Shown here: positions 10,328-30,826 of the stretch, one piece after another | How positions within the stretch are numbered: the first letter of the stretch is position 1 | Layout: each line of letters starts with the position of its first letter | Assembly (NCBI RefSeq): GCF_009932555.1 | Contig: NZ_BLJO01000013.1 | Location: 74,048-109,329 of the forward strand | Source: Steroidobacter agaridevorans | GTDB taxonomy: Bacteria > Pseudomonadota > Gammaproteobacteria > Steroidobacterales > Steroidobacteraceae | DNA length: 35,282 nt | Direction: 5' to 3' | Position numbers and translations under genes: made by a program | Notes under the pieces: generated by a model | Told to the model about the DNA's origin: nothing | Databases searched by the model: none | The model's input: the letters and a program-made list of their open reading frames with translations, nothing else

Positions 10328-10450
10328 GGGACTCTCCAAACTGTGACACCGGACTCTGCAAGAGAGGGTATATCAAACCCGAGGCCCGAAGCACTCAGGC
10401 ACGTTGCAATGGGCGGCAACTTTCGACGAGTCATCGCTTTAGGCCCACCT

Positions 10451-11332
10451 TCATCTCGCCGCGCTCGCGATGAAACCGCGAACCGCGTCGGCGCACTCGC
10501 GGCAGTGAGTTTCCAATAGGAAATGCGCACCGTCGAGAACGTGCATCTCCAGCCGCTCCAGTTCGCGCGCGTAAGCTATGATCTCGTCCAGCGCGTAATA
10601 GACATCGTGGCGCCCCCAGATGATCAGACAGGGCGGCTGATGCTCCCGGTGATAGCGCGAGATGTCCGGGAAGCGCGCGACGTAGTTCTTATAATCTTCG
10701 AAAAGCTTGAACTGAATCTCGACATTGCCGGGCCTGCTCATGCGCTCCCAGTCGAGGTGCCAACACTCGGGTGGGAACAGCGGCTTCAGACGCTCCGGAA
10801 CTCCGTCGAGATACACGGCTCGTGCGCCTTCGAAGTTGAGCCAGTCGGGCAGCTTCGCGCGATTCTCGGGCGACGGATCGGCCCAGAAGGCCTTGGCATC
10901 GTCCCAGATCCCGACCATGCCTTCGTCATGCGCGCTGCCATTCTGAACGATGAGGCCGAGCACGCGCTCGGCGCGACGCAGCGCGAGCTGATATGCGACG
11001 GGCGCGCCATAGTCGTGAACGTAAAGAAACATCCGCTTCAGCCCGAGCACATCGGTGAGCGCTTCGATGGTGCTGGCGAGGTTCTCGAAGCTGTACTCAT
11101 AGCGCTCCTGCGGCGGCGCTTCTGAGAACCCGAAGCCCGGCATGTCCGGCGCAACGAGATACGCCGTGTCCGCGAGCAAAGGCAGGAGATTGCGGAAGGT
11201 GTGCGAAGAGCTCGGCGCGCCGTGGAGGAGCAGCACGGCGGGCCGATCGGGCTCGCCGGCTTCGCGAATGAACAACTCGAGTCCGTTGACTGAAACCGTC
11301 CGATGGCGTGTCTTGCAGGTACCGATCGACAT
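10451..11332 (-). CDS. Alpha/beta hydrolase of the haloalkane dehalogenase/epoxide hydrolase type
   Basis: 293 residues. The core fold begins AVLLLHGAPSSSHTFRNLLP, with the HG oxyanion turn. The nucleophile elbow is YVHDYGAPV, with Asp107 in place of Ser, the hallmark of dehalogenases and epoxide hydrolases, which form an ester with the substrate. A cap domain with many Trp and Tyr residues covers about 140-215. The acid is probably the Asp of WGRHDVYY and the base His is in DGAHFLLE. HDYG differs from the commoner HDWG and HDRG forms, so I would not name a substrate. No signal peptide, so cytoplasmic. A GGAGA site precedes the ATG. The 183 bases between this start and 11516 contain the divergent promoters and nothing else I can identify. 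Confidence 0.85.
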   Translation of the reverse strand: MSIGTCKTRHRTVSVNGLELFIREAGEPDRPAVLLLHGAPSSSHTFRNLLPLLADTAYLVAPDMPGFGFSEAPPQERYEYSFENLASTIEALTDVLGLKRMFLYVHDYGAPVAYQLALRRAERVLGLIVQNGSAHDEGMVGIWDDAKAFWADPSPENRAKLPDWLNFEGARAVYLDGVPERLKPLFPPECWHLDWERMSRPGNVEIQFKLFEDYKNYVARFPDISRYHREHQPPCLIIWGRHDVYYALDEIIAYARELERLEMHVLDGAHFLLETHCRECADAVRGFIASAAR

Positions 11333-11515
11333 GGCGGCGCATCTCCGTTGACCCGACCCGTAACCGCCGAATGCGCCTCTCGACGTTAAGTTCCGAAGGG
11401 CTCAGAAATCAGCGAAACGAGCGAAATGGGCGCTCCGCACGTACCAATGCTCTACTTGCTCGCAACGGATTTCGGCGTATCGTTCGCACGCTTCCCTCAG
11501 TCCAGGACACTGCGC

Positions 11516-11983
11516 ATGAGCCTTAAGACTTCGCTGACCTGCTTCATCGCTCTCGTCGCCTTCGCCGGTTCGGCCGCCGCTGATCCGACAACACTTGCCA
11601 AAGAGGTGCGCGACGCAGAGCAGGCATTTGCAGCTACCATGGCGGCTCGTGACCACGCCGCCTTCACGCGACATCTCGCGGAAGACGCCGTGTTCTTTGA
11701 CGATAAGAAAGCGACCCGCGGCAAAGCGGCGATCGCGGCAGCATGGAAGGCGTTCTTCGAGGGTCCGAATCCGCCATTCTCGTGGACGCCCGAGACCGTG
11801 GAAGTGATCGACTCCGGCACGCTGGCCCACAGCAGCGGCCCCATTTTCGATCCCAAAGGCAAGCGCGTCGGCACGTTCAATTCAGTATGGCGTCGCGAGC
11901 CGGACGGCGCATGGCGCGTCGTGTTCGACAAGGGATGCAATGCATGCGACTGTGCCAGGGCTAGCGCAAGCGCAGCGCCTTGA
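11516..11983 (+). CDS. Exported DUF4440/SnoaL-like protein
   Basis: 155 residues from ATG 11516. This start is chosen because MSLKTSLTCFIALVAFAGSA makes a clean signal peptide cleaved near AAA-DP; the in-frame ATG 90 bases earlier gives no such leader. The mature part is one NTF2-like domain: EVRDAEQAFAATMAARDHAA and FTRHLAEDAVFFDDKKATRG are the usual helix and strand of the DUF4440/SgcJ group, ending VWRREPDGAWRVVFDKG. A C-terminal CNACDC tail with three Cys is unusual and might bind metal or form disulfides. Likely periplasmic. Its end overlaps the convergent amidohydrolase gene by 23 bases. Activity unknown. Confidence 0.8.
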   Translation: MSLKTSLTCFIALVAFAGSAAADPTTLAKEVRDAEQAFAATMAARDHAAFTRHLAEDAVFFDDKKATRGKAAIAAAWKAFFEGPNPPFSWTPETVEVIDSGTLAHSSGPIFDPKGKRVGTFNSVWRREPDGAWRVVFDKGCNACDCARASASAAP

Positions 11984-12836
11984 TCGCATTCTCCTTGAAA
12001 ATCAGCGGCCGCACCTCCGGCTTGAAGCCCGCCTCCGCGAAATCCTTCATCCAGCGCTCGGGCGTGATCAGGGGATAGTCCGAGCCGAACAGCATCTTGT
12101 GCTTGAGCTGGCCGTTGGCGTACTGGATCAGTTGGGGCTGGAAATACTTGGGCGACCATCCCGACAGATCGATATAAACATTCGGCTTGTGCAAGCACAC
12201 CGACAGCGCCTCGTCCTGCCACGGCCAGGACGGGTGCGCGATGATGACATTCATCTCCGGAAAATCCGCGGCGACGTCGTCGAGATAAATCGGGTTGGAG
12301 TATTTCAGACGCAGCCCGCCGCCGCCCGGCATCCCGGTGCCAATGCCTGAGTGGCCGCTATGAAAGATCGCCGGCAACTTGTGCTCGGCGATCACCTCGT
12401 ATAGCGGATAAGCCATTCGGTCGTTGGGAAAGAAGCCCTGCGCAGTGGGATGGAATTTGAACCCGCGAATGACGCCGTCCTTCAACAGCGCCTTCGCCTC
12501 GCGCACGCCCATCCTGCCCTTGTGAGGATCGATGCTGGCGAATGCGATCATCATGTCGGCATTGTCGCGCGCCGCATCCGCCACTTCTTCGTTGGGAATG
12601 CGGCGCGCGCCGATCTGATGTTCGGAATCGACCGTGAACATCACCAGCCCGATCTTCCGTTCGCGATAGTAGGCCACCGTCTCCGCGATAGTCGGCCGGC
12701 GACTGCCGGCCTTGAAGTACACGTTCGCCGCATTCTCGTATTCCTGCCACACCTCGTCCGTCGGGCAGCGGCAGGAGACTTCGGCATGCGTGTGCACGTC
12801 TATCGCAATCAGCTCGTCGAGCTTGAGAGACGTCAT
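11961..12836 (-). CDS. Metal-dependent amidohydrolase (amidohydrolase-2 family) of the aromatic cluster
   Basis: 291 residues from ATG 12836; upstream in-frame residues only shadow ligM. TIM-barrel hydrolase of the ACMSD/LigW/LigJ superfamily (PF04909 type). Metal ligands visible: H15 and H17 in IDVHTHAE, H129 in GFKFHPT, H159 in AIFHSGHSG, H201 in IIAHPSWPW, and D253 in LFGSDYP. Enzymes of this family decarboxylate or hydrolyse aromatic acids and ring-cleavage products. As the last gene of the block, seven bases after ligM, it probably acts on an intermediate of vanillate/protocatechuate degradation or a 5-carboxy aromatic. It is not LigI-like enough for me to name it. Cytoplasmic. It overlaps the convergent DUF4440 gene by 23 bases. 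Confidence 0.8.
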   Translation of the reverse strand: MTSLKLDELIAIDVHTHAEVSCRCPTDEVWQEYENAANVYFKAGSRRPTIAETVAYYRERKIGLVMFTVDSEHQIGARRIPNEEVADAARDNADMMIAFASIDPHKGRMGVREAKALLKDGVIRGFKFHPTAQGFFPNDRMAYPLYEVIAEHKLPAIFHSGHSGIGTGMPGGGGLRLKYSNPIYLDDVAADFPEMNVIIAHPSWPWQDEALSVCLHKPNVYIDLSGWSPKYFQPQLIQYANGQLKHKMLFGSDYPLITPERWMKDFAEAGFKPEVRPLIFKENAIKALRLR

Positions 12837-12843
12837 GACAAGC

Positions 12844-16762
<3,919 letters not shown>

Positions 16763-16763
<1 letters not shown>

Positions 16764-18886
16764 CAGGCGGCGCGCTCGCTGTCCCAGCTTGCAAACGACC
16801 TTCCTTGCTGAGCGAGTGTTTCGAGCAGCGGCGCCGGCCGCCAGTAGTCGTCGCGACTCTTCATGCGCGCACCGTAGTACTCGATGCGGTCGAGAACGTG
16901 CTTCAGCCCGAGGCTGTCGGCATGAAACATCGGACCGCCAAGATGCCTCGGAAAGCCATAACCATGCACCCACACCACATCGATATCGGCAGCGCGCATC
17001 GCGATGCCGGCTTCGAGCACCTGCGCACCGACGTTAATGAGTTGCAGCAGGCACCGCTCCACGATTTCGGAGGTTTCGATCGACCTACGGGCGATGCCGC
17101 GATCGGCGGCAAACTTGGCGATGAGTTCGATCACCTCATCATCCGGCAGCGCCTGTCGCTCGCCGGGCCGATATCGATAGAAGCCCGCCAGGGTCTTCTG
17201 CCCGAGACGGTTCATCGCCGTCAGCGCATCGGCAATGACAAAATAGGGATCCGGCCGCGTCTCCCGTTTGAACAGCTCGATGCGGGTCTTGGTGCCGACA
17301 TCGGTCCCACCCAGATCGTTGACGCGCGCCGGCCCCATCGCGAAACCGAAAGATTCCATGGCGCTGTCGACCTGTTCGGGTGTCGCGCCTTCCAGCATCA
17401 ACTGCTCCGCTTCACGCCAGTAGCCGTCCAGCATCATCTTGTTGCCAATGAAGCCGAAGGCGTCGCCGGCCACGACGCCAATCTTCTTCAACTGCTTTGC
17501 CAGCGCCAGCGCCCGGCCGAGCGCGGCCGCATCGGTGCTGGGCGACCGCACGATCTCGAGCAGTTTCATCACGTGGGCCGGGCTGAAGAAATGCAGCCCG
17601 ACCACCCGTTGCGGATCGCGACAGGGCCGTGACAACTCGGCGATGGACAATGTCGAAGTATTCGACGCCAGCAAGGTCGATGCTGGGGTGAGCGAAGCGA
17701 TCTTCGACAGGATGCTTTGCTTGAGCGCCAGATCTTCGAACACCGCCTCGATCACCACATCGGCTTCGGCGGCGGCGCCAAGCTCCAGCGAATCCACGAT
17801 GCGTCCGCGGCGGCGTGCGGCTTCTTCATGAGTCAATCGCCCGCGCGCCACACTCGACTCATAGTTCGACGCGATCAACGCGAGACCGCGCTCGATGCCG
17901 TCGGCATGGGAGTCGATCAACGTAACGGCCATGCCCGCATCGGCGCAGGCTGTGGCGATGCCGCTGCCCATCGTTCCCGCGCCGATGATTGCGACCCGGG
18001 CAATCAGCGCCTTTGAGGAATCCATCGCGACACCCGGCACTTTCGCGACCTGCCGCTCGGCGAAGAACAGGTGGCGCAGTGCCTTGCTTTCCATCGACGC
18101 GATCGAACGATCGGCAATGCGACGCTCGATGGCGAGCCCCGCATCGAAATCCGATTGCGTGGCCGCAGTGACCGCTTCGAGGGCGAGCTGCTGAGTCGTA
18201 CGTCCTTTCAATGCTCGCGAATGTTTGCTGACGATGGCAGCAATCCCTGGCGCATCGAAGCCCGAAACCTCGACCGGCCGGCTGCCCGTCGGCCGGGGCT
18301 TTGCGCCCTGCTCGATCAATTGCTCGCAGAAACGTTGTGCTCCCAGCAGCAGATCTCCGTCGACCACTGCATCGACCAGTCTGAGCTTCGACGCCGCGGC
18401 GGCATCGACCGGTGCGCCAGAAACAATCATATCGAGGGCCGCCGCCGCACCGATGACTCGCGGCAGACGCTGCGTGCCGCCGGCGCCTGGAATCAGCCCC
18501 AGCGTGATCTCCGGAAGGCCGAGCTTCGCATCCGCCGTCGCCACTCGGTAGTGACATGCAAGCGCCAGCTCGACGCCGCCGCCGAGCGCCATGCCATGCA
18601 GAGCCGCGACGATCGGCTTGCTCGATGCCTCGATGGACGCGAACACCGCCTGCAGTGTCGGCTCCGCCATCGGCCCGTCGAATTCGCCAATGTCGGCGCC
18701 GGCCGAAAACGTCTTGCCGGCGCATGCGATGACGATCGCCCGCACGGACGCATCGGCGAGCGCTGCCGCAAGCGTGCGCGCAAGCCCGGCACGGACCGAT
18801 GCTCCGAGCACATTCACTGGCGGATAATCGATCAGCAAGAAGCCAACCTGATTCCTGCGCTGATACTGAACGGCTTCTGACGGCAT
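16763..18886 (-). CDS. Bifunctional enoyl-CoA hydratase/3-hydroxyacyl-CoA dehydrogenase
   Basis: 707 residues, FadB/FadJ/peroxisomal-MFE1 architecture. Crotonase domain at about 1-190: oxyanion and catalytic parts AGKTFSAGADIGEFDG, GMALGGGVELALACHYRVAT with E106, and GLPEITLGLIPGAGGTQRLP with E126, so both hydratase glutamates are present. NAD-binding dehydrogenase at about 295-480: VAIIGAGTMGSGIATACADA (302-307 Gly motif) and VVGLHFFSPAHVMKLLE with H432. C-terminal dehydrogenase helices continue to the end (GMGPARVNDLGG-like region, GGPMFHADSLGL). In this cluster it would hydrate feruloyl-CoA and oxidise the 3-hydroxy product to the 3-keto-CoA, as in CoA-dependent beta-oxidative ferulate deacetylation. 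A general fatty-acid role is the alternative. A GAGGGA site precedes the ATG, 14 bases after the receptor gene. Confidence 0.93.
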
Positions 18887-18900
18887 CGATCCCTCGCTCC

Positions 18901-21120
18901 TCAGAATTTATAACCGGCAGTCACGCCATACGTGCGCGGCGGCAAATAGGTGCCGGTGATCGTGCGCGCGGTGGATGTCACATAGATGCCGGATACGATC
19001 ATCTCATCCGAGAGGTTCTTGCCCCAGAAATTGAGCGTGAACTTGCCGCCGTCGCCCGTGTACAGCAGGTTGGCGTCGTACAACGTAAAGCCGTCCTGGC
19101 CGGTGATCTCGTCATTGAACTCCGTGTAGTACTGTTTATCCCGGCTCGACACTCCGCCGGTCAAAGCCAGCGATGCGCCGCTGGTCAGCGGCCACTCGTA
19201 GGTCGCCGACAATTCGGCCGTCCAATCCGGCGTGTTGCGAGGACGATTGCCCGTCAGGTCCTCCGGCGGCAGCGTCGAGCCGCCCGGCCCGAACAGCGCC
19301 GGGTTGATCGGGTTCTGCGACAGGAACTTGTCGAAGCGGATGTGATAATAGGTGCCGGCGAACGACATCTTGAAACGGTCGGTCGCGATCCAGCTGGTCT
19401 CGAGCTCGACGCCCTTGCCGTCGGTGGTCGCCGCATTCTCCAGTCGCGCGGCATAGAACGGCGGCGCAGTGATGGCGTAAGTGCGATCGTACTGCGCATC
19501 CTCGACCTTGTATTTGAAGGCGGCGATGTTGAGCATCAGCGAGTCCTTCAACAGCCAGCTCTTCAAGCCCGCCTCGACGTTCTCGATCGTCTCGGGATTG
19601 ACCAGATTGGGTACACGCTCGCCGAGATTGGCCGTGCCGCTCTTGAAGCCTTCCGAATAAGTGGCATACAGCATGACCGCATCCATGGGCCGCAGCTCGA
19701 CGCCGACTTCCGGAGAGAAGTCCGAATAGTCTCGCGACGCACGCTTCACAGGATCGAAGACGGCAGCCGGGTCGACCGGGCTTGCCACGGCAAAATGATT
19801 CTCCATCGCGCGCTTCTCGGCGCTGTAGCGTGCGCCCGCTTTGACGGAAAACATCTTGGTCAAGTCATAAGTGAAGTTGGTAAACAACGCCCACGCGTCC
19901 ACGTCGAGCGTCGCGGGCACGATCACGCGTGAGCGAGTCGGTTGCCTCACTGGATCGCGACCCAGCAGCACCAGGCTGTCGATGGACTCGGTCAGATAGT
20001 AGGCGGCGGCGATGCCATGCAGCCGGTCGCCTTCATAGATGAACTGGAGTTCCTGAGAAAACTGCTCGTCGCCGATAGCCTGCAATTGAGTCGTCGACGT
20101 GGGCGCCGGCGGGAAGTTGCCGTTGACCGTGTCCGAGACATCGAAGTCCTGCGTCAGCTGGTCATCGAACTCGCGATAGTTGGTCAGCGATTTGAACGAG
20201 ATCGCATCGGTGACGCCGACTGTCAGCGTCGCGGTGGCCGCCCAGGTCTCGCTTTCGAACGTCGGGCGGAAGTCACCGCCGGCGTTGCGCGAGTTCGGCG
20301 ACACGTTCGGCAGACCGGTCGCCCGCAGGCTGGGCAGCGGCGGGTTGGGAAACATTGGCGCGATGAAGTGCACCGACTTGGTGTGATCGTCTTCCTTGGC
20401 ATACTCGCCACTGAGCAACAGATCCACGTTGTCGCTGAACTTGAACTGCAAATGGCCGCGCGTGGCGATCACGTTGAGGTCGTCGATGTCCTTGCCGCTG
20501 CCGGTGTGCTTGCCGTAGCCGTCGTGGTGTTGATAGTGGACAGCGACGCGGCCGAGCAGCTTTTCTGTCAACGGCCCGCTGAGCGCAGAATCCAGGCCAT
20601 AACTCAGGTCGCTGCCGCCGACCGAAACATTGGTGTAGCCGCTGAAATTCTGCGTGGGCTTCGCGGTCACCAGATTGATGGAACCGCCGGTGGCATTACG
20701 GCCATACAACGTTCCCTGTGGGCCGCGCAGCGCTTCGACGCGCTCCAGATCGAACAGCGACGCGAACTGCGCGGACGCTTGCGCGACCACCGCGCCGTCG
20801 ACGTGCAGCGCCACGGAAGGATCGATGCCAGCAAACGAGCTGTTCAGGCCGACGCCGCGGATGAACAGCTTCGCAAACGCGAAGTCGTTGCCGAATGTGA
20901 CACCCGGCACGCGATGCTGCAGGTCCTCGATGTTCGAGATATTGCTCCGGAGCAGATCTTCGGCGGACAGCGCGGTGACGGCCAAGCTCACGTCTTGCAA
21001 CGATTGTTCGCGTTTCTGCGCCGTCACGATCACTTCTTCCAGCTCGGCAGCGCGCGCTGTCAGCGGCAGCGTCAACGTCAATGCCACAGCCATCATCGGA
21101 ACTCGTCTAGATGAATACAC
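18901..21120 (-). CDS. TonB-dependent outer-membrane receptor of the aromatic cluster
   Basis: 739 residues. A GTG start at 21120 is chosen because AGGGGG lies six bases upstream; ATGs at 21096 and 21093 have no clear site. Signal peptide RRVPMMAVALTLTLPLTARA, then LEEVIVTAQKREQSLQDV (TonB box plus plug start), plug motifs LQHRVPGVTFGNDFAFAKLF, IRGVG, LRGPQGTLYGRNATGGSINL, and a 22-strand barrel ending TYGVTAGYKF with the terminal Phe of outer-membrane proteins. It energises uptake of a substrate too large or too dilute for porins. Position between the MFS permease and the hydratase/dehydrogenase points to lignin-derived or hydroxycinnamate compounds; iron chelates are the usual alternative. 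Confidence 0.93.
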   Translation of the reverse strand: MYSSRRVPMMAVALTLTLPLTARAAELEEVIVTAQKREQSLQDVSLAVTALSAEDLLRSNISNIEDLQHRVPGVTFGNDFAFAKLFIRGVGLNSSFAGIDPSVALHVDGAVVAQASAQFASLFDLERVEALRGPQGTLYGRNATGGSINLVTAKPTQNFSGYTNVSVGGSDLSYGLDSALSGPLTEKLLGRVAVHYQHHDGYGKHTGSGKDIDDLNVIATRGHLQFKFSDNVDLLLSGEYAKEDDHTKSVHFIAPMFPNPPLPSLRATGLPNVSPNSRNAGGDFRPTFESETWAATATLTVGVTDAISFKSLTNYREFDDQLTQDFDVSDTVNGNFPPAPTSTTQLQAIGDEQFSQELQFIYEGDRLHGIAAAYYLTESIDSLVLLGRDPVRQPTRSRVIVPATLDVDAWALFTNFTYDLTKMFSVKAGARYSAEKRAMENHFAVASPVDPAAVFDPVKRASRDYSDFSPEVGVELRPMDAVMLYATYSEGFKSGTANLGERVPNLVNPETIENVEAGLKSWLLKDSLMLNIAAFKYKVEDAQYDRTYAITAPPFYAARLENAATTDGKGVELETSWIATDRFKMSFAGTYYHIRFDKFLSQNPINPALFGPGGSTLPPEDLTGNRPRNTPDWTAELSATYEWPLTSGASLALTGGVSSRDKQYYTEFNDEITGQDGFTLYDANLLYTGDGGKFTLNFWGKNLSDEMIVSGIYVTSTARTITGTYLPPRTYGVTAGYKF

Positions 21121-21159
21121 GGCAGCCCCCTGTCTATCGACCTTGTTTATTCGACCTCT

Positions 21160-22488
21160 CTACCGGCTCAGCACCAGCCGCGGTGGCGCGGCCAACATCG
21201 ATCCTCGCAACAACCAAATGGACATCGCGGACAACGCCGCGCCTAGCGCCATGATCCCCGCGACACTGGGGCGGCTCGTTCCCGCCGCCATCAGCCAGCC
21301 GCCAAGCACGGGACCGAGCATTCCGCCGAAGCGACCCAGGCCGATGGCCAGGCCCGTGCCCGTGGCGCGCAGGTGCGTCGGAAACACGCGAACGAACGTC
21401 GCGTAGAAGCCGACCGCCGACGAATAAAGAAACCAGCCAAGCACGAATGCGACGGCTTTGAGAGCAAACAAGTCGGGTTGCGTCCGACCGAAGACAGCAA
21501 GCGAGAGCGCTGTGAGAAGCATCGCGCCGCTCGCCAACGGCTTGAGATTAATGTGCCGGGCGAGATACCCGAGCAGCGCGCCGCCGATGATCCCGCCCAG
21601 ATTGGTCCATACCGACACTTCGGCGCCGACGCTCGCGGTAAAGCCCAGTGCCGTGACGATGGAAGGAATCCAGCCAAGCACGTAGTAGCACGTCATCATG
21701 TAGAGGAAGTACGCCGCACAGATCAGCGCCGTTTGCGCCACGAGCTCCTTGTCGAACGAGGCCCAAACATTCATGCGCGGCTGCCGTGTTCGAGCCGGCA
21801 TTTCCGTAATGTTTGCTCGCCCCATCCGGCGAAGAATCGTATTCACCCGCTCCAAGGCGTCCGGCGAACGTTTGAACACCAGGAACTCGATGGACTCTGG
21901 CAGGCGCCACCACACCACGACCAGGATCAAAGTCGACACCACGCCGCCTAACAGGAAGACCGAGCGCCAGTCGAACTCGCGCAGCAGCCAAGCGGCGGCC
22001 ATGCCGCCCAGCACGCCACCCAATGGATAACCGATGGTCATGAGACTGACGCAGAAGTCCCGGCGAGTGTCGTTCGAATACTCGGCGACCATCGCGTTGA
22101 TGGAAGCCAGCATCCCGCCGATGCCCAGTCCGGTGACGATGCGCCAGATCGACAGCGCGATGACATCGGCGGCAGTCGCGGACAGCAACATGCCGACGGT
22201 CATCAGAATCAAACACAGCAGGATGATGGGACGGCGGCCCATCGAGTCGGCGAGCGGCGCGAGCAGCAGCGACCCCACCGACATGCCGACCAGGCCGGTG
22301 GAAATGACGATGCCGAGCCCGCCCGGACCCAATCCCCACTCGCGCGTGATGCCCGGCCCGGCGAACGTGATCGCGAGGATATCGAAGCCGTCGAGCGCGT
22401 TGAGCGCGACACAAATCGCGACCGCCACGATTTGGAACGAGCTCATGGGCTCGCGACGCAGCTGCGCACTGGGATCGGATGGCGTCAT
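21160..22488 (-). CDS. MFS transporter, aromatic acid:H+ symporter family
   Basis: 442 residues from ATG 22488, four bases after the preceding gene's stop and with GGTGAG upstream. Earlier in-frame ATGs lack ribosome sites and lie within the upstream gene. It is a 12-helix major-facilitator protein. Helix 1 carries ALNALDGFDILAITFAGPGI, with the acidic DGFD pair typical of the AAHS group (PcaK, VanK, GalP, DdvK-like), and loop 2-3 carries PLADSMGRRPIILL, the MFS motif A. Helix 4 region: WRIVTGLGIGGMLASINAMV. C-half: YSSAVGFYATFVRVFPTHLR. Expected to move hydroxycinnamates, vanillate or protocatechuate across the inner membrane with protons, completing the outer-membrane receptor route. Confidence 0.93.
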   Translation of the reverse strand: MTPSDPSAQLRREPMSSFQIVAVAICVALNALDGFDILAITFAGPGITREWGLGPGGLGIVISTGLVGMSVGSLLLAPLADSMGRRPIILLCLILMTVGMLLSATAADVIALSIWRIVTGLGIGGMLASINAMVAEYSNDTRRDFCVSLMTIGYPLGGVLGGMAAAWLLREFDWRSVFLLGGVVSTLILVVVWWRLPESIEFLVFKRSPDALERVNTILRRMGRANITEMPARTRQPRMNVWASFDKELVAQTALICAAYFLYMMTCYYVLGWIPSIVTALGFTASVGAEVSVWTNLGGIIGGALLGYLARHINLKPLASGAMLLTALSLAVFGRTQPDLFALKAVAFVLGWFLYSSAVGFYATFVRVFPTHLRATGTGLAIGLGRFGGMLGPVLGGWLMAAGTSRPSVAGIMALGAALSAMSIWLLRGSMLAAPPRLVLSR

Positions 22489-22492
22489 GCCC

Positions 22493-23674
22493 TCACCCAC
22501 CGCTTTCGACATGCAGGAGAAAGCGCGCCTGACGGTGCGCAATGCGCCACAGTCCGTCGGAGCACAATCGCAATGTATCTTCGAACTCGCCGACGACCTG
22601 GCGCGACTGAGCACGGCGGCCGAAATCGCCGACCTCGTGATCGGCAGTGCCCGTCCACAACAACACGTTACTGATGGCGTGCGCTTCGTCGGGAGCGCGC
22701 AGATCGACGACGCTGCCGGAAACCAGATGACGAGTCAGATAGGCCGCGGGCCGCGATCGGTAGGATGCGAGCAATGCGTCGACACCGCAGAGGGGTTCTT
22801 TGCCCGGTCGTACCACGACCGCATCAGGCGTGAAAAACTGGGCGAAGCCGTCGAGATCGTTGGCGTCGAGTTTGAGTGCGGCCCGGCGGACCACGTCGCG
22901 ACAGGCCGATTCGGCGAGCTGGCGCTCCAGCAGCGCGATGGGTCGCTGCCCGACCGGAATGTCTCCTTTCCCACTCAGCCATTCCGCCAACGCGGCCGTC
23001 ACGGCCTCCGGTTGTTCCAGCGTACTCATGTGACCGCTTTCCTCGATGATGCGCAGACGCGCGCCGCGCACGATCACGGCCATCTGCAAGTGTTGCGATA
23101 AAGGACTCCAGGCGTCCTGGCGCCCGCAGGCCACGAGCGTGGGACAACGAATGGCGAGCAGCTGCGCCATCGCATTGGGTCTCGCGAGCAGCGCTTGGAT
23201 CTGTGCGGCGAATATGTCGGGCGTCTTGCGCTCGACCATGTCGACCATGGCTTCGAATAACGGCGAGCCGAGTCGCTTGGGATGCACCATCCCCGACAGC
23301 CAGCGTCGTCCCATGGAGCGCATGCCGTTGCGACGAGCCTCTTCGAGCAGCGCCAGGCGAGATGTTTGTTCCTCCTCGCCTCGGGCTCCGGGCTGGCGCG
23401 GCTGCCAGCCGGAATCGAGCAATGCCAGCCGCTCGACTCGATGAGGCGCGAGTCGCATCACTTCGAGCGCCACTCGCCCGCCCATCGAATGTCCCGCCAT
23501 TGCGAATGTTTCGGCTGGCGCATCGCGCAGGATGGCCCGCGCCATGTCGGTGAGCGAATGGATCGAGCCATGATCGGGCACCCAGATTCGAGCGTGGCTC
23601 GACAGGGCGCGCCTTTGTTCGGACCATGCGAACTCGTCGCAGAGCAATCCCGGGATGAGTACGAGCGTGGTCAT
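22493..23674 (-). CDS. Alpha/beta hydrolase fused to an NTF2/SnoaL-like domain
   Basis: 393 residues, two domains. Residues 1-235 are an alpha/beta hydrolase: LVLIPGLLCDEFAWSEQRRA, nucleophile elbow MAGHSMGGRVAL with S63, acid D187 in CGRQDAWSP and base H215 in ESGHMSTLEQP, so the triad is complete. Residues about 248-393 (LLERQLAESACRDVVRRAAL, DLDGFAQFFTPDAVVVRPGK, YLTRHLVSG, LWRIAHRQARFLLH) are an NTF2-like domain of the ring-hydroxylating-dioxygenase-beta/SnoaL kind. No signal peptide. Start ATG overlaps the stop of the feruloyl-CoA synthetase (ATGA, 23671-23674), so it is coupled to it. Possible roles: thioesterase or beta-keto-acyl-CoA hydrolase releasing vanillate, or an esterase on hydroxycinnamate esters. 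I cannot decide between them. Confidence 0.85.
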   Translation of the reverse strand: MTTLVLIPGLLCDEFAWSEQRRALSSHARIWVPDHGSIHSLTDMARAILRDAPAETFAMAGHSMGGRVALEVMRLAPHRVERLALLDSGWQPRQPGARGEEEQTSRLALLEEARRNGMRSMGRRWLSGMVHPKRLGSPLFEAMVDMVERKTPDIFAAQIQALLARPNAMAQLLAIRCPTLVACGRQDAWSPLSQHLQMAVIVRGARLRIIEESGHMSTLEQPEAVTAALAEWLSGKGDIPVGQRPIALLERQLAESACRDVVRRAALKLDANDLDGFAQFFTPDAVVVRPGKEPLCGVDALLASYRSRPAAYLTRHLVSGSVVDLRAPDEAHAISNVLLWTGTADHEVGDFGRRAQSRQVVGEFEDTLRLCSDGLWRIAHRQARFLLHVESGG

Positions 23675-25452
23675 GACAGCACCACCACGTCGCGCTCGCG
23701 ATCCGAGGAATACAACCGCTCGACCATCGCTTGACGCGCCAGGATCACGGCGCGCTGATTGATCGTGCCTTTATCAGTGATTTCGCCTGCGACGATCGAC
23801 GGTGGCTGTTCCAACACGAGGGCGCGAGTCACGCGCTGCGAGCCACCACCGGCGCGATGCGCCAGCACTTTGAGCAGATCGCCCAACCAGGTCTGCACAC
23901 CGGCAGAGGAAAGCCGTGAGCCTCCCGCACTAAGAAACACGAGCATGCCCAACTCATCGCGATCCTGGCCGACGAACACGACGTCATGGATGTATGGCGT
24001 GCCCGCAGCCAACACCGCCGCACGCATCGCACCGACATTGACCCACGTGCCGCTCGAGAGTTTGAAGTCCTCGGCAATGCGACCGTCGAAACGCAATCCC
24101 AGGCTGGGCTGAGCCGGATCGATGAAGACCGCGGCATCGCCGCTGCAAAAGAAACCTTCTTCGTCGAAAGCCTCGCGGCTGATCTCGGGCTGACGCCAGT
24201 AGCCAGGCGTGATGCTCGGACCGCGATAGCGCACTTCGAGCTTGTCCGCGACCGGCGCGAGTTTCACCTCGACGCCCGGCGCTGGCAGTCCGATCACTCC
24301 GGGTTGCCACGTCGGCAGATGCGCAGAAATTGCGAACGGCGCTGTCTCCGTCATGCCCAGTCCCATGGTCATGGGAGTTTTGCGTCCGCGCACTTGCATC
24401 GACATCTCGTCGATCGCGTCCTGCACCGGCTTCGGCAATCCGGCGCCGGCGGGAAAGATCAATTTCATGCGGCTGAAGAAATGTGCGCGAAGGCGTTCAT
24501 CCGCCCGCATGGCGTCGACCAGCATCTCCAACCCTTTCGGTACGGTGTAGTAGATGGTCGGGGCTACCTCGCGCAAATTCGCAACCGTCTGCGCCATACC
24601 CGCCGCCGTCGGCTTGCCCGCATCGATGTAGAGCGTGCCGCCGTGTGCCAGCACCGTCCCCATATTGGCGTTGCCGCCGGCCGTGTGATGCCAGGGCAGC
24701 CAGTCCACCAGCACTGGCGGCTCATCCTCGAGAAAGGGATAGCACTGCGCATACATCTGCTGATTGCACGAGAGCATGCGATGCGTGTTGATGACCGCCT
24801 TCGGCATGCGAGTGGAGCCGGAGGTAAACATGAACTTCGCCATCGTGTCGCCCGTCACTGCCTCGTGAGCGCGCTCGACATCGACGCTCGCCTCGCCGAT
24901 CAGGCTGGCAAATGGACTGTGCGGTCGCGAGGAGATGTGACCATCGAGAGCGACGACTTCTGTCTCCGCCGGTACAGCCAGAGATACCGCCGTATCGAAC
25001 GCTCGAGCGTCTTCGGCGTACACCAGTCCCGGCGTCAGCAGCGAAACTGCGTGCAGGACACGCCTTGCTTCGGGATCGACGAGCGAATATGCCGGCGATA
25101 ACGGCGCGACCGGCACGCCGATATGCATGGCGGCGAACGTGAGCAGTGCATGCTCGATGCTGTTGCCCGAGAGGATGACGAGCGGCCGTTCGGCACTCAG
25201 ATTCCGTTGCAGCAAGCCTGCAGCGATTCTCTGGATCTGTGCGAAGGCCGCCGAATAGCTGAGCTTGCGCCATTCGTCATGGGCATCGCGCTGGGCGAGC
25301 CAGACGGCATCGGGGCGCTCCTTGGCCCAGCGCGCGAGATATTCGGTGAAGCGGCGAGGATAGGAACGCAGCGGGTCGAGAGAGCGCAGCGACCAACATC
25401 CGTCGGCGCGTTGCTCAGCCACTCCTGCGTAGGGACCCAGCCTTGTGTCCAC
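23671..25452 (-). CDS. fcs: Feruloyl-CoA synthetase
   Basis: Activates ferulate (and probably p-coumarate or caffeate) to the CoA thioester with ATP and CoA, in the cytoplasm. 593 residues, the ANL superfamily. P-loop A3 motif at about 209-220 (FTSGSTRMPKAV), A5-like MTMGLGMTETAPFA, and hinge region LRFDGRIAEDFKLSSGTWVN, whose EDFKLSSGTWVNVG is the distinctive form of the feruloyl-CoA synthetase family. Near the C-terminus ITDKGTINQRAVI holds the catalytic lysine of the A10 motif. The start is GTG, with GGGGATGGA just before it; the nearby ATG is out of frame. The 118-base gap to metF is the largest within the block and may hold an internal promoter. The stop overlaps the hydrolase start. Confidence 0.93.
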   Translation of the reverse strand: MDTRLGPYAGVAEQRADGCWSLRSLDPLRSYPRRFTEYLARWAKERPDAVWLAQRDAHDEWRKLSYSAAFAQIQRIAAGLLQRNLSAERPLVILSGNSIEHALLTFAAMHIGVPVAPLSPAYSLVDPEARRVLHAVSLLTPGLVYAEDARAFDTAVSLAVPAETEVVALDGHISSRPHSPFASLIGEASVDVERAHEAVTGDTMAKFMFTSGSTRMPKAVINTHRMLSCNQQMYAQCYPFLEDEPPVLVDWLPWHHTAGGNANMGTVLAHGGTLYIDAGKPTAAGMAQTVANLREVAPTIYYTVPKGLEMLVDAMRADERLRAHFFSRMKLIFPAGAGLPKPVQDAIDEMSMQVRGRKTPMTMGLGMTETAPFAISAHLPTWQPGVIGLPAPGVEVKLAPVADKLEVRYRGPSITPGYWRQPEISREAFDEEGFFCSGDAAVFIDPAQPSLGLRFDGRIAEDFKLSSGTWVNVGAMRAAVLAAGTPYIHDVVFVGQDRDELGMLVFLSAGGSRLSSAGVQTWLGDLLKVLAHRAGGGSQRVTRALVLEQPPSIVAGEITDKGTINQRAVILARQAMVERLYSSDRERDVVVLS

Positions 25453-25570
25453 TCCATCCCCGCACTATCTAACTGTTTATATTCGATCCAAGCGGCCGAT
25501 TATTGGGAGACGGCAGAGCCTCGCGCCAATGCCGAACCGCGGCCAAGCGATAACCTTTGCTGATAGTCCT

Positions 25571-26488
25571 CTAGTCGACGCGGAAACCACCGTGCCGATC
25601 GAGCGTGAATTCCCCGGCGCCCACGCGCTGCAGCCATTCGCAGGTTCGGAGGAATCCGCCGAAAGTGAAAAAGTGCAGTCCGTCATACACATCGGGCCGC
25701 GGCACACCGGCGAGCGTTCGCATTAGCTGCTCCGGCCCGTGATCGCCGATGAGCTTCACCATCGATGTCGGCCTTGCTCCCAGCGCACGAATCGACGGCC
25801 CGACGCCACAGCGCACGGCATAGCGAAGCAGCGTCGCGATACTGGCCGGGCCAGATATGCCGGCAACGAGCCTCGCTCTGACTCCATCGGCACGTAAGCC
25901 CGCGGCCCATTCCACGAACGGCGGCGCTTCGAAGAAGAACTGTGTGAGCAATGTGGCTTGCAGTCCGGCCGCTTGCGCCAGTTCCGCCTTCTCGCGTTCG
26001 GCTCGACGGATTTCCGGCAGCGGCACTTGCGGATGCCCTTCGGGATGGCCGGCCATCGAAATCCTGCGCAAGCCGAACTCGCCCAACTTGCCGGTTCGCA
26101 AGACTTCCGCGACAGTCGAATACGGTCCGCGCGCCTGCGGATAATCCCCAGAGATCAGCAGTATCTCCGCCACCTGGGCACGGTTGGCAGCCTGGTGCAA
26201 AAACTCTTCGAGCGTGCGTGCGCTGTCGAGCAAACGTACCGGCACATGCGGCACCGGCTCGAAACCGACCTCTCGCACCTCGTGACAGGCATCGATCGTT
26301 TGCTGCCAGGTCTGCTTCGGCAGATGGCTCACATAAACCTTTTTCCCCGGTGACAGCAACGAGCGAGCGCGACGCAGCTGGGGAGCGTCCTGGACATTCA
26401 TTTCGATGGAACAGCCTCGCGCCAGCGTGGCAATGCCTGCCTGATCGACAACGGGTTCCGGCATGGCCTCGGCCTTGGGTTGTGTCAT
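25571..26488 (-). CDS. metF: Methylenetetrahydrofolate reductase, catabolic type
   Basis: 305 residues, a flavin-dependent TIM barrel. Key residues match E. coli MetF: E29 in GCSIEMNVQ (E28), D115 in LLISGDYPQ (D120) and Q183 in LLTQFFFEAP (Q183). In O-demethylating bacteria such as Sphingobium SYK-6, a metF next to ligM runs from 5-methyl-THF toward 5,10-methylene-THF, recycling the methyl acceptor. The location 13 bases after purU, in the same block as ligM, supports that role over methionine synthesis. The N-terminal 15 residues (MTQPKAEAMPEPVVD) are poorly conserved. The sequence is quite diverged from housekeeping MetF, for example SIEM in place of SFEFFPP. Confidence 0.88.
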   Translation of the reverse strand: MTQPKAEAMPEPVVDQAGIATLARGCSIEMNVQDAPQLRRARSLLSPGKKVYVSHLPKQTWQQTIDACHEVREVGFEPVPHVPVRLLDSARTLEEFLHQAANRAQVAEILLISGDYPQARGPYSTVAEVLRTGKLGEFGLRRISMAGHPEGHPQVPLPEIRRAEREKAELAQAAGLQATLLTQFFFEAPPFVEWAAGLRADGVRARLVAGISGPASIATLLRYAVRCGVGPSIRALGARPTSMVKLIGDHGPEQLMRTLAGVPRPDVYDGLHFFTFGGFLRTCEWLQRVGAGEFTLDRHGGFRVD

Positions 26489-26501
26489 GTGCGACCTGCG
26501 C

Positions 26502-27347
26502 TCAGCGAAACACGACGGTGCGATTGCCGTTCAACAAAATGCGATGTTCGACGTGCCATTTCACCGCCCGCGCCAGCACCGCACACTCCACGTCGCGCCC
26601 CACAGCGGCGCAATCGTCCGCGCTCATGGCGTGATCGACGCGAGCTACGTCCTGTTCGATGATCGGTCCTTCGTCCAGATCCTCCGTGACATAGTGCGCC
26701 GTGGCGCCGATCAACTTGACGCCGCGATCGTGCGCCTGTTGATACGGTCTCGCCCCCTGAAAGCTCGGCAGGAACGAGTGATGTATGTTGATGGCGCGCC
26801 CCTCCAGCTGTTGGCACAACGCCGGCGACAGAATCTGCATGTAGCGGGCAAGCACGACCAGGTCGGCCTGCGTTTCGTCCACGATGTCCAGCAGCTGTTG
26901 CTCCTGGCGTTGCTTGTTCTCCGGGTTCACCGGCAGATAATGGAAGGGGATGTCGTTGGCGGCGCAGAGGCGATAGAAGTCGCGATGGTTCGAGACGATC
27001 GCCGGGATCTCGATGGCGAGCGCGCCGATTCGATACCGATACAACAAATCATTCAGGCAGTGGCCGAACCGGGAGACCATCAGCACGACGCGTTGCTTTC
27101 TTGCCAGGTCGTAAAAGCTCCACTGCATGGCGAACTTCTCGGCGATGGGCGCGAACGCCGCTTGCAGGGCCTCGACCGGCTGGGCCTGCTCGCCATCGAA
27201 ACAAACCCTCATGAAGAAGCGCTGCGCCTGGTCGCCGAACTGGGCGCTCTCCACGATGTTGCAGCGGTGCTCGAGCAAAAAGCTGCCCACGGCAGCGACG
27301 ATGCCTCTGCGGTCCGGGCAGGAAAGCCTGAGGATATAACGCTGCAT
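26502..27347 (-). CDS. purU: Formyltetrahydrofolate deformylase
   Basis: Hydrolyses 10-formyl-THF to formate and THF. 281 residues, the usual size. The N-terminal ACT domain is at about 1-80 (YILRLSCPDRRGIVAAVGSF, then LLEHRCNIVESAQF). The formyltransferase-like catalytic domain follows (RVVLMVSRFGHCLNDLLYRY, LVVLARYMQILSP). The catalytic triad is N187 and H189 (AINIHHSFLPSF) plus D225 (TEDLDEGPI). With metF and ligM it would free THF from the C1 units released by demethylation, after a methylene-THF dehydrogenase/cyclohydrolase (FolD) not found here. First gene of the minus-strand block, reading away from the LysR gene at 27477. Confidence 0.95.
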   Translation of the reverse strand: MQRYILRLSCPDRRGIVAAVGSFLLEHRCNIVESAQFGDQAQRFFMRVCFDGEQAQPVEALQAAFAPIAEKFAMQWSFYDLARKQRVVLMVSRFGHCLNDLLYRYRIGALAIEIPAIVSNHRDFYRLCAANDIPFHYLPVNPENKQRQEQQLLDIVDETQADLVVLARYMQILSPALCQQLEGRAINIHHSFLPSFQGARPYQQAHDRGVKLIGATAHYVTEDLDEGPIIEQDVARVDHAMSADDCAAVGRDVECAVLARAVKWHVEHRILLNGNRTVVFR

Positions 27348-27428
27348 GCGGCGGTCTTTGTCGAGAATCCCCCAAGGCCGGCTATGCTCCTGCCCCGGCC
27401 CTCATCCGGCAACACGATCTGGACTATT

Positions 27429-27455
27429 GGCTCTATCCGTGAAATGAATAGAGCC
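27429..27455. promoter_or_regulatory. Candidate LysR operator controlling the aromatic block
   Basis: GGCTCTAT (27429-27436) and ATAGAGCC (27448-27455) are perfect 8-bp arms with an 11-base spacer. The arms include T and A placed as in the T-N11-A LysR consensus. It lies 21 bases upstream of the divergent LysR start and about 82 bases upstream of purU. The rest of the 129-base gap has no -10/-35 I would defend. Confidence 0.6.
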
Positions 27456-27476
27456 CCCTGAGCGATACATCCATAT

Positions 27477-28391
27477 ATGAGCGAGCTGGATCTGAATTTG
27501 CTGTACGCCCTGGTGGCGCTGGACGATTGCCGCAGCGTCAGCGACGCTGCTGTGAAGTTGCGCCGAAGTCAGCCGGCCGTGAGCGCGGCGCTAGGCAAGC
27601 TGCGCAAGTTCTTCGACGATCCCTTGTTCGTGCGCATCGGCAACAGCATGGAGCCCACGCCTCGAGGCCGCAGCGTCGTCGGCTCGGCCCGCGCCATTCT
27701 CGGACGCATCGGCACCGATATCATCGCGACCCCGGTCTTCGATCCCGCGACGCTGACCGGGCCCATCTCGGTGGCCATGTCCGACGTGGGCGAGATCGTG
27801 TTTCTTCCGAAGCTGCTGAAGGACCTGCGCCGGCTCGCGCCGCAAGCAAGCATCAACGCGGTCAGCCTGCCGGCGGCACAGATCGCCGAGGGGCTGGAGT
27901 CCGGCGCAGTCGATCTCGCGATGGGCTACTTTCCCGATCTGAAGAAGAACAATTTCTTTCAACAGGTGCTGTTCACGGACGGCTTCACCGGCCTGCTGCG
28001 CGCCGATCATCCGCTGTCGACGAAGAAGCTCAATCTGAAGCAGTTCCTGCAACTGGAGCACGTGGTCGTGCGTGCCGAGAGCCGCAGCCAGGAGGTCATC
28101 GAAGGTTACTTGAAGCGCAAGCGCATCCAGCGCCGCGTCGTGCTGACGACGCCCCACTTCGGCAGCGCCCCGGTGATCGTTGCGCAATCCGATCTCATGG
28201 TCACCGTGCCGGAGCCCCTGGCTCACTATTTTTCAGCCGCATCGCCTCAAGTTCGGGTCGTCGGCCTGCCGTTTCCGTCGCCGCGAATTCCATTGCGGCA
28301 GATCTGGCATCGCAAGTTTCACCACGACCCGCGCAGCCGCTGGCTGCGAACATTGACTGCGGAGTTGTTTCAGGCGCCGACTCGGGCCTGA
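27477..28391 (+). CDS. LysR-family regulator, NodD/NahR-like, divergent from the aromatic block
   Basis: 304 residues. It opens LDLNLLYALVALDDCRSVSD with AVKLRRSQPAVSAALGKLRK and FFDDPLFVRIGNSMEPTPRG. The LDLNLL start and DPLFVR wing mark the NodD/NahR/LeuO-like subgroup that often senses aromatic compounds or plant signals. The effector domain (ISVAMSDVGEIVFLPKLLKD, then ESGAVDLAMGYFPDL) follows from about 90. Divergent from purU with a good inverted-repeat operator between, so it is the likely regulator of the front of the block, while the dual-HTH LysR is embedded further down. The convergent PRC-barrel gene ends nine bases beyond its stop. Confidence 0.92.
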   Translation: MSELDLNLLYALVALDDCRSVSDAAVKLRRSQPAVSAALGKLRKFFDDPLFVRIGNSMEPTPRGRSVVGSARAILGRIGTDIIATPVFDPATLTGPISVAMSDVGEIVFLPKLLKDLRRLAPQASINAVSLPAAQIAEGLESGAVDLAMGYFPDLKKNNFFQQVLFTDGFTGLLRADHPLSTKKLNLKQFLQLEHVVVRAESRSQEVIEGYLKRKRIQRRVVLTTPHFGSAPVIVAQSDLMVTVPEPLAHYFSAASPQVRVVGLPFPSPRIPLRQIWHRKFHHDPRSRWLRTLTAELFQAPTRA

Positions 28392-28400
28392 TGCTGTCAA

Positions 28401-29180
28401 TCAGATTGGCAGCGTCCAGTCGTTGTCTTTCACGCCGCGTCGCCGATGTTCGAGCGGCCGTCCGTAGTGCCGATAGAGGGCGTCTTCCTCCGCTTCCGCA
28501 AACGATGCGGCGTCGTACTCCGGACTGTTGCGAACCTCATCGCGCGTGAGCGCCACATACGCCTTGCGCCCTTCCCAAGCGACGCGGTCGACCCAGTCCG
28601 TCGAAATCAGCACATGCCGACCCGGCAGCCAGTTGCGGGTATCGACGACGAAATAGCGCAGGCCCCAGGTGGCGTCATCGAAGATGAAGTCGTCGACGTG
28701 GCCGATCGAGCCATCTACCGCCTCGATGTGGTAACGCTCGACTTCGTTTGCGCTGCGCAGGTTCGGATCTCCTTTCTCCCGCCGCCCTGCTTCGTGCGCC
28801 GGATCGGCAATGGCCCCGTCCTTTGGGAAAGGCACCGGCCCCCATGCAAACATGCCCATCCAGTAGTACGGATAGCCGAAGTAATCCGAGTACGCGGTCT
28901 CGTACTGACGGGACACAGGTTTATCTGCGTCCATGTCCGGGCTGTTACGAACCTGCTCGCGGGTTAGCGTGACGTCCACTCGTCGCGCTCGCCAATCCAC
29001 GTCACGAATCGCCCACGGCGATATCAGCACCCGTCGCCCCGTCAACCATGAGCCCGCACTCACCACCAGGTAGCGCAGCGTCCACTCGTGATCGTCGAAA
29101 TAGGCGTCGCGGACGTGACCGATTTCACCGTCGCTCGCGCCAATCGACATCCGTTTCAAACCTGAGAGGGTCTGTAACAT
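28401..29180 (-). CDS. Tandem PRC-barrel protein
   Basis: 259 residues from ATG 29180, with GAGGGA about ten bases upstream. Two PRC-barrel-like domains, clearly an internal duplication: residues about 14-80 (DGEIGHVRDAYFDDHEWTLR, LISPWAIRDV, TLTREQVRNSPDMD) and about 147-225 (DGSIGHVDDFIFDDATWGLR, LISTDWVDRV, ALTRDEVRNSPEYD). Between them is an aromatic-rich stretch (YSDYFGYPYYWMGMFAWGP). The C-terminal end is charged. Such proteins are common in soil proteobacteria beside DUF4168 and other stress genes; they are cytoplasmic and their partner is unknown. It lies ten bases after the DUF4168 gene and is surely in one operon with it. Confidence 0.88.
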   Translation of the reverse strand: MLQTLSGLKRMSIGASDGEIGHVRDAYFDDHEWTLRYLVVSAGSWLTGRRVLISPWAIRDVDWRARRVDVTLTREQVRNSPDMDADKPVSRQYETAYSDYFGYPYYWMGMFAWGPVPFPKDGAIADPAHEAGRREKGDPNLRSANEVERYHIEAVDGSIGHVDDFIFDDATWGLRYFVVDTRNWLPGRHVLISTDWVDRVAWEGRKAYVALTRDEVRNSPEYDAASFAEAEEDALYRHYGRPLEHRRRGVKDNDWTLPI

Positions 29181-30724: not shown

Positions 30725-30826
30725 CCAAGAAAAGCCGCCTGCAAAGAACTCCGGACTCTCGATCAATTCCGGCCGGGCGCCGCTCGGCAAACTCTCTCCC
30801 AGCCAACACCGAGTATAGGAGAGACC

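Follow-up and report, generated by a model that had tools for sequence, protein, structure and literature searches.

A twelve-gene block of Steroidobacter agaridevorans predicted to act in ferulate catabolism, with a hydrolase-SnoaL fusion and a LysR-type regulator carrying two DNA-binding domains

Layout and conservation of the gene block

The DNA analyzed here (the window) is a stretch of 35,282 nucleotides from contig NZ_BLJO01000013.1 (C13 in our numbering) of the 8.0 Mb genome of Steroidobacter agaridevorans (assembly GCF_009932555.1; G000). It carries twelve open reading frames (ORFs) at 11961-27347, all on the minus strand, uninterrupted and with no internal stops (Table 1). An earlier note on this DNA had read these genes as a compact one-strand block, from purU to an amidohydrolase gene, by which ferulate-type compounds would be taken up, activated with CoA, O-demethylated with recycling of folate and cleaved at the ring. 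The twelve intact frames bear out the compact layout, and the family matches agree both with this interpretation and with the gene names that had been given (PurU, a divergent MetF, a CoA ligase, an MFS transporter, a TonB receptor, a hydratase/dehydrogenase, LigA, LigB, a LysR, LigM and Amidohydro_2). The annotation was nonetheless incomplete, as it had overlooked a fusion of an alpha/beta-hydrolase with a SnoaL domain and a second HTH_1 domain in the LysR protein embedded in the block.

Table 1 Features of the block and of its upstream region. Positions refer to the window; bit scores are given with the cut-off of the respective model.
Feature	Position	Strand	Evidence
purU, formyltetrahydrofolate deformylase, 281 aa	26502..27347	-	TIGR00655 353 bits, cut-off 286
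metF-like methylenetetrahydrofolate reductase, 305 aa	25571..26488	-	7xg9 E 3e-50; Pfam 22.8, cut-off 24
118-base gap before fcs, candidate second promoter/operator	25453..25570	-	partly conserved in G011, G002, G010
fcs, feruloyl-CoA synthetase-type ligase, 593 aa	23671..25452	-	PRK12582 696 bits, cut-off 777
desC-desD-like fusion: alpha/beta-hydrolase (~1-240) + SnoaL_4 (~253-381)	22493..23674	-	Pfam
MFS transporter, aromatic acid/H+ symport type, 442 aa	21160..22488	-	TIGR00895 325 bits, cut-off 419
TonB-dependent outer-membrane receptor, 731 aa	18901..21096	-	PF00593, PF07715
Fused enoyl-CoA hydratase/3-hydroxyacyl-CoA dehydrogenase, 707 aa	16763..18886	-	ECH_1, 3HCDH_N, 3HCDH
ligA, protocatechuate 4,5-dioxygenase small subunit, 128 aa from ATG	16377..16763	-	TIGR02792 166 bits, cut-off 108.6
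ligB, large subunit, 280 aa	15542..16384	-	1b4u E 1e-127; tree
LysR-type regulator, two tandem DNA-binding domains, 434 aa	14241..15545	-	two HTH_1 + LysR_substrate
ligM, tetrahydrofolate-dependent vanillate O-demethylase, 466 aa	12844..14244	-	NF047885 739 bits, cut-off 580
Putative amidohydrolase-type beta-ketoacyl-CoA hydrolase, CouO/HpeF-like, 291 aa	11961..12836	-	PF04909
Divergent LysR at block head	27477..28391	+	HTH_1, LysR_substrate
Candidate LysR operator, dyad CTCTAT-N11-ATAGAG	27429..27455	.	exact match 27431-27453

Read from purU to the amidohydrolase gene, the junctions measure +13, +118, -4, +4, +63, +14, -1, -8, -4, -4 and +7 bases, where ATG starts are used when available (fcs offers only GTG or TTG). 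Five of the 11 junctions overlap, and the only gap above 63 bases is that of 118 bases before fcs. This gap had been recognized correctly, but the limit of 39 bases claimed for all others does not hold, as it requires a GTG start at 21120 for the TonB receptor, while the ATG at 21096 leaves 63 bases.

Conservation was searched among 60 relatives, including 13 congeners, with the hydrolase-SnoaL protein as the query, so that a block lacking the hydrolase gene would escape. Three congeners present the block. In G011, where the end of the block was taken from an adjoining stretch and the LysR was read in two stretches, all twelve genes are found in the same order, with protein identities of 88-98%. 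G002 keeps ten genes, also in the same order, with ligA and ligB missing between the hydratase/dehydrogenase fusion and the LysR gene. G010 is reduced to metF, fcs, a hydrolase without the SnoaL domain, the MFS carrier, the TonB receptor, LysR and ligM, and the stretches read showed no purU, ligAB or amidohydrolase gene. The twelve-gene arrangement is thus more than chance, as its order is kept in congeners. The hydratase/dehydrogenase fusion of G010 matches only in separate pieces (L035, ~10346-11701), as if decayed.

Functions predicted for the encoded enzymes

Two plasmid proteins annotated as feruloyl-CoA synthase share 44 and 47% identity with Fcs. The hydratase/dehydrogenase fusion is FadJ-like and presents motifs with Glu106/Glu126 and His432/Glu444, which we take to be catalytic, and the amidohydrolase (PF04909, 154.9 bits) contains the motifs DVHTH, FHSGH, IAHPSW and GSDYP, which presumably bind metal. 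The amidohydrolase matched 161 plasmid records, and in the five regions opened its relatives are 57-76% identical. On plasmids of Rhizobium sp. Q54 and TH2, relatives (61-62% identity) come after a hydratase gene and a MarR gene and near a feruloyl-CoA synthase gene, and one Rhizobium record names the relative 4-hydroxyphenyl-beta-ketoacyl-CoA hydrolase. In Paraburkholderia, on a plasmid without annotation, a homologue of fcs stands immediately before the relative; on a Pseudomonas putida YC-AE1 plasmid, the relative (76% identity) comes after biotin-carboxylase and HAD genes, resembling the published Hpe set; and on a Rhodococcus opacus plasmid, a 57% identical protein is followed by AMP-binding, SDR and MaoC genes. 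This amidohydrolase type is therefore linked to aryl-CoA ligase/hydratase genes in Rhizobium, in Paraburkholderia and in the second locus of the own genome, described below. A plus-strand ORF with DUF4440/SnoaL_2 matches (window 11426-11983) converges with the amidohydrolase gene, their 3' ends overlapping.

HpeF, of the acetovanillone Hpe set, is a predicted beta-ketoacyl-CoA hydrolase homologous to CouO (PMC9618137). CouO and HpeF, judging from context, share the amidohydrolase fold, and the last gene of the block resembles hydrolases of this type. As relatives of this CouO/HpeF-type protein stand beside feruloyl-CoA synthase genes, a thiolase would not be needed. Since the Rhizobium layout resembles that of Agrobacterium fabrum, in which Atu1421 and hcaR share a transcription unit (PMC7797058), Atu1421 is probably the counterpart of the block amidohydrolase. 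An identity of the amidohydrolase as LigI, LigJ or LigW was rejected, given that its only solved match (E <=0.001) is uncharacterized and that two other amidohydrolases are found in the lower-pathway locus. Side-chain shortening is thus probably a CoA-dependent beta-oxidation and not the vanillin route of Sphingobium SYK-6, where the FerAB route reportedly involves a lyase yielding vanillin. A hydratase-lyase (HCHL) route to vanillin was likewise rejected within the block, as the crotonase domain belongs to the FadJ-like fusion; a stand-alone lyase elsewhere in the genome was not searched for.

For O-demethylation, LigM passes the equivalog cut-off of its own model and fails the DesA model (643.5 vs 800), and its best solved matches are LigM structures (5x1i, E 4e-197). 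A search of the own genome for the GCV_T domain gave three matches, namely the block LigM, a weak one and a strong one elsewhere that is probably an ordinary glycine-cleavage protein, while VanA_C had no match in G000 and one in G002. The MetF protein differs strongly from ordinary MetF and lies near its best solved relative, the 5,10-methylenetetrahydrofolate reductase 7xg9, which we take to be the SYK-6 MetF enzyme. That enzyme is reported to oxidize 5-methyltetrahydrofolate, i.e., to run in the reverse direction (PMC12585457), and SYK-6 is thought to complete the folate cycle via LigH (PMC6888825). The FTHFS/LigH family had no match in any of the four genus genomes searched, the own genome included, and is present in two of the three other family members searched. 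G000 encodes two PurU proteins above the cut-off, one of them within the block, and PurU probably stands in for LigH. LigM matched 299 plasmid records, and in the one region opened metF lies beside the demethylase gene. A literature search found no publication joining purU, ligM, metF and tetrahydrofolate.

The fusion overlooked earlier combines a hydrolase half, in which the triad of Ser63, Asp187 and His215 is invariant in 15 aligned sequences, with a SnoaL_4 domain (PF13577, E 5e-19), the same domain as is reported for MgaD. After ring cleavage of 3-O-methylgallate, the product is converted by DesC and DesD (PMC12314914, PMC6888825), the former type acting as a CHMOD methylesterase and the SnoaL type (pfam13577 in MgaD) as an isomerase; DesC and MgaC are only 13% identical (PMC12314914). 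By this analogy, the gene is probably a DesC-DesD-type fusion, and as DesC/DesD act on the 3-O-methylgallate cleavage product and MgaD has a SnoaL domain, it most likely performs both methylester hydrolysis and isomerization. PcaD and MenH were rejected as identities for the hydrolase, with scores far under the cut-offs. By gene-fusion logic, the single chain supports the proposed DesC-DesD partnership.

At least 347 relatives of the hydrolase were found among genome contigs, and the loci of the best 80 were examined for neighbors at per-gene bit-score thresholds; since many stretches were short, the counts are lower bounds. These loci contain ligB in 32 cases, ligA in 22, SnoaL in 23 and LysR in 33, as compared to ligM in two and fcs in one. 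Among the loci from L033 on, and with DesD matches shorter than 80 residues dropped, hydrolase and SnoaL are separate adjacent genes in 17, and the fusion seen in the window recurs in G011 and G002; in eight further loci the SnoaL match lies elsewhere in the stretch and not directly downstream of the hydrolase. The hydrolase also matched 373 plasmid records, from which six regions were opened. In Sphingobium pPDL2, gallate dioxygenase and ligA-type genes come after the hydrolase gene and a gene of the NTF2 family, and on two Roseomonas plasmids the hydrolase gene is beside an extradiol dioxygenase gene. On the Sphingobium TomTYG64 plasmid, it lies ahead of a gene that passes the DesA cut-off and opposite metF, purU and folD. 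The placing of folate genes in front, which had been described as unfamiliar, is thus not unique as far as their company with a demethylase gene is concerned.

LigA passes its equivalog cut-off (Table 1), and His12, His59 and Glu240 of LigB, presumably the metal site, align with 1b4u, its best solved relative, a protocatechuate 4,5-dioxygenase. In a LigB tree of 53 rows, from which matches below 240 residues or containing stops were dropped, the block LigB groups with that of G021 (97/87) and apart from the LigB of the genus's main locus, although several deep joins are long-branch and unsure. With the same reserve, the idea that the block ligAB was recently copied from the main locus was rejected. 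In G021, ligAB adjoins a metF-like piece and a DesC-type gene. Ring cleavage had been taken as part of the unit, and ligAB is indeed present, but it is neither fixed nor complete: as G002 keeps the gene order without ligAB, it should be considered optional, and later steps are found elsewhere.

Those later steps point to a second locus of the own genome (L083, G000:C1:308001-328000), which encodes pobA, LigA, LigB, two amidohydrolases, a 4-oxalomesaconate tautomerase, LigK above the cut-off and an MFS carrier, as well as another double-HTH LysR. It also holds a side-chain set parallel to that of the block, with identities of 81% for the amidohydrolase, 47% for fcs and 44% for the hydratase/dehydrogenase fusion. 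The pathway is incomplete in the block, and by these family assignments the steps after ring opening lie in this second locus. The simplest reading is one of two parallel modules, one for coumarate via 4-hydroxybenzoate (pobA) and one for ferulate via vanillate (ligM), which suggests that hydroxyphenyl and guaiacyl units are handled separately. A third, more distant LigA/LigB-type dioxygenase is encoded at L088 (G000:C7:300001-319000, ~9722-10927).

Regulators and intergenic regions

The LysR protein embedded in the block presents two HTH_1 stretches followed by a C-terminal LysR_substrate domain and thus departs from the single DNA-binding domain expected of the LysR type. Its two halves align with a score of 131, as compared to 16 for the best of 500 shuffles. 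The AlphaFold model (pLDDT 86.4, 15 sequences) places two helix-rich domains, each with a long helix after it, ahead of the effector domain, and both are read as winged from the order of their elements. Fold matches in the PDB reach at most 326 residues among the 50 listed of 962 (E <=0.001). In the best 80 hydrolase loci, any LysR match was seen in 36, a match covering both heads in 16 and a match above 70 bits without both heads in 17; one row (L105) was left out of one comparison, as its stretch held a stop. No title on a double-HTH LysR was among the literature-search matches listed, from which no wider absence from print is claimed. The architecture lends itself to testing how LysR oligomers bind DNA.

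Weak LysR matches are found at the place of the divergent LysR in both G011 and G002. The dyad between it and purU is intact in G011 and has one arm base changed in G002. As dyad-type matches (with up to two mismatches) arise in 30 of 100 shuffled versions of the window, the weight of this candidate operator rests on its position and conservation. The 118-base gap before fcs suggests a second promoter, as it is partly conserved, even in G010. A promoter scan found no consensus sigma-70 promoters, where 3.7 are expected by chance, and terminator-like sites on both strands of 10300-28500 number 20, as compared to 11.6 in shuffles, some of them on the minus strand inside the block.

Proposed pathway and relation to known systems

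Judging from the genes present and their intact reading frames, the families they belong to, the conserved order and the neighboring genes, we consider it quite probable that the block serves the catabolism of hydroxycinnamates (ferulate) through CoA-dependent beta-oxidation and hydrolytic deacetylation; the reactions, substrates and regulatory steps given here are predictions drawn from these data. The TonB receptor and the MFS carrier would import the aromatic acid, which Fcs would convert to feruloyl-CoA. The fused hydratase/dehydrogenase would hydrate and oxidize the side chain, and the amidohydrolase would split the resulting beta-ketoacyl-CoA into vanillate and acetyl-CoA, with neither thiolase nor vanillin. 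LigM is expected to transfer the methoxy methyl group to tetrahydrofolate, yielding protocatechuate, while MetF running in reverse, FolD from outside the block and PurU would regenerate the folate and release formate. LigAB would then open the ring, and the separate chromosomal locus with the parallel side-chain set and pobA would supply the steps that follow. The DesC-DesD-like fusion may hydrolyze and isomerize the methyl-ester product that LigAB would make from 3-O-methylgallate, and methoxygallate-type substrates may therefore be covered as well. Control would be exerted by two LysR regulators, the divergent one and the embedded one with its two DNA-binding domains.

Several observations weigh against this picture. 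Fcs and the MFS carrier fall under their NCBIfam cut-offs (Table 1), folD is missing from the block, and LigC was not identified in L083, which encodes a DUF1932 protein and an aldo/keto reductase. G010 retains fcs and ligM, although its fusion gene matches piecemeal and no amidohydrolase was seen. On plasmids, the Bosea hydrolase lies beside homoprotocatechuate genes, and the Sphingobium EP60837 region shows no aromatic genes around the hydrolase. A source of 3-O-methylgallate is not visible, given a single LigM/DesA-like match and no VanA_C match in G000. Thiolases, in addition, are encoded elsewhere in the own genome, and in G034 one lies beside a homologue of the hydratase/dehydrogenase fusion (47% identity), about 8 kb from a hydrolase homologue (L037, G034:C45:14501-34500), so that a fusion of this type can also be paired with a thiolase.

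Among the alternatives, a block that mainly serves syringyl compounds is unlikely. LigM would then also demethylate syringate, LigAB would be a 3-O-methylgallate dioxygenase whose product the DesC-DesD-like fusion finishes, and guaiacyl compounds would use the chromosomal ligAB. The presence of that fusion agrees with this, as does the position of the block LigB, which is distinct from the LigB of the main locus and clusters with that of G021, whose ligAB has a metF-like piece and a DesC-type gene as neighbors; however, by curated cut-off the demethylase matches LigM and not DesA, and G002 retains the fusion without ligAB.

Somewhat less probable again is that a thiolase encoded elsewhere cleaves the product of the hydratase/dehydrogenase fusion to vanilloyl-CoA, with the alpha/beta-hydrolase as a vanilloyl-CoA thioesterase and the amidohydrolase doing something else. 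The thiolase genes elsewhere in the genome and in G034, the alpha/beta-hydrolase within the block and the beta-keto-thiolase role published for Atu1421 (PMC7797058) would all suit such a scheme. We nonetheless rejected the thiolase route, as the thiolase family had no match on the block's contig in G000, G002, G010 or G011, as 32 of the 80 hydrolase loci have a ligB match and 23 a SnoaL match but only one an fcs match, and as it is the amidohydrolase that is found together with fcs.

That the genes are separately expressed, with compactness being mere packing and the real substrate another hydroxylated arylpropenoate, is very doubtful, since the conserved sequence before fcs, the divergent head regulator and the excess of terminator-like sites are set against an order kept in G011 and G002, five overlapping junctions and an equivalog match of LigM that points to vanillate.

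If the ferulate unit is as we describe it, it would be a compact and testable gene set leading from ferulate to protocatechuate while avoiding vanillin, and thus of use for lignin valorization. A wider proposal can be offered only tentatively, namely that this thiolase- and aldehyde-free hydroxycinnamate route covers both guaiacyl and methoxygallate compounds by means of a single-chain methylesterase-isomerase, and that it is governed by an undescribed class of LysR with two DNA-binding domains, dedicated to protocatechuate/3-O-methylgallate catabolism across Proteobacteria, whose dimer possibly presents the four heads of ordinary LysR tetramers.

Beyond the block, the window contains an AraC-type regulator with a cupin domain (29747-31231), which adjoins and diverges from a small SnoaL_2 protein; an ORF at 5544-6944 with a match to the NAD glycohydrolase translocation F5/8 type C domain in its C-terminal part; and an ORF at 34426-35280, running off the window, with a weak, below-cut-off match to REP-associated tyrosine transposase.

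SYK-6 had been chosen as the comparator, with its comparable genes described as scattered. They do lie in separate operons (ligM-metF-ligH, ligJABC and ligKUI; PMC6888825), but A. fabrum is nearer. The closest published system is its SpG8-1b region (Atu1415-Atu1422; PMC7797058), a CoA-dependent beta-oxidative ferulate cluster which, like the block, joins a feruloyl-CoA synthase, a hydratase, a dehydrogenase, a side-chain-cleaving enzyme, a LigM-type demethylase and a MetF homologue. A. fabrum is reported to have a separate hydratase and dehydrogenase, MarR (HcaR) and GntR repressors and several transcription units, whereas the block is compact, with a fused hydratase/dehydrogenase, LysR regulators, purU, transporters, a DesC-DesD-like fusion and ligAB. 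With SYK-6 (PMC6888825, PMC12585457) the block shares LigM, a MetF homologue predicted to run in reverse and protocatechuate 4,5-cleavage, but it has PurU in a genome with no FTHFS match, where SYK-6 has LigH and separate operons. As in the rhodococcal Cou and Hpe pathways (PMC9618137), a CoA ligase would be followed by a beta-ketoacyl-CoA hydrolase, although Hpe starts from acetovanillone by carboxylation and the block would start by hydration and oxidation of a cinnamoyl-CoA.

The probable counterparts of the hydrolase-SnoaL protein are the Novosphingobium pair DesC/DesD and the pair MgaC/MgaD from Pseudomonas sp. NGC7 (PMC12314914), in which an alpha/beta-hydrolase and, for MgaD, a SnoaL-type isomerase act after ring cleavage, but here, in the window and in two congeners among the loci examined, the protein is one fused polypeptide. 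Within the same family, the Steroidobacteraceae metagenome-assembled genome MB2.51 combines a LigM/DesA-like methyltransferase with protocatechuate meta-cleavage, with no operon described in the available part of the source (PMC9296663). The embedded regulator has the HTH_1 and LysR substrate domains and the fold matches of LysR regulators such as TsaR, CbnR and BenM, but two DNA-binding domains per chain. Most steps are thus known from other bacteria, while their combination, the fused enzyme and the double-headed regulator appear to be new variations.

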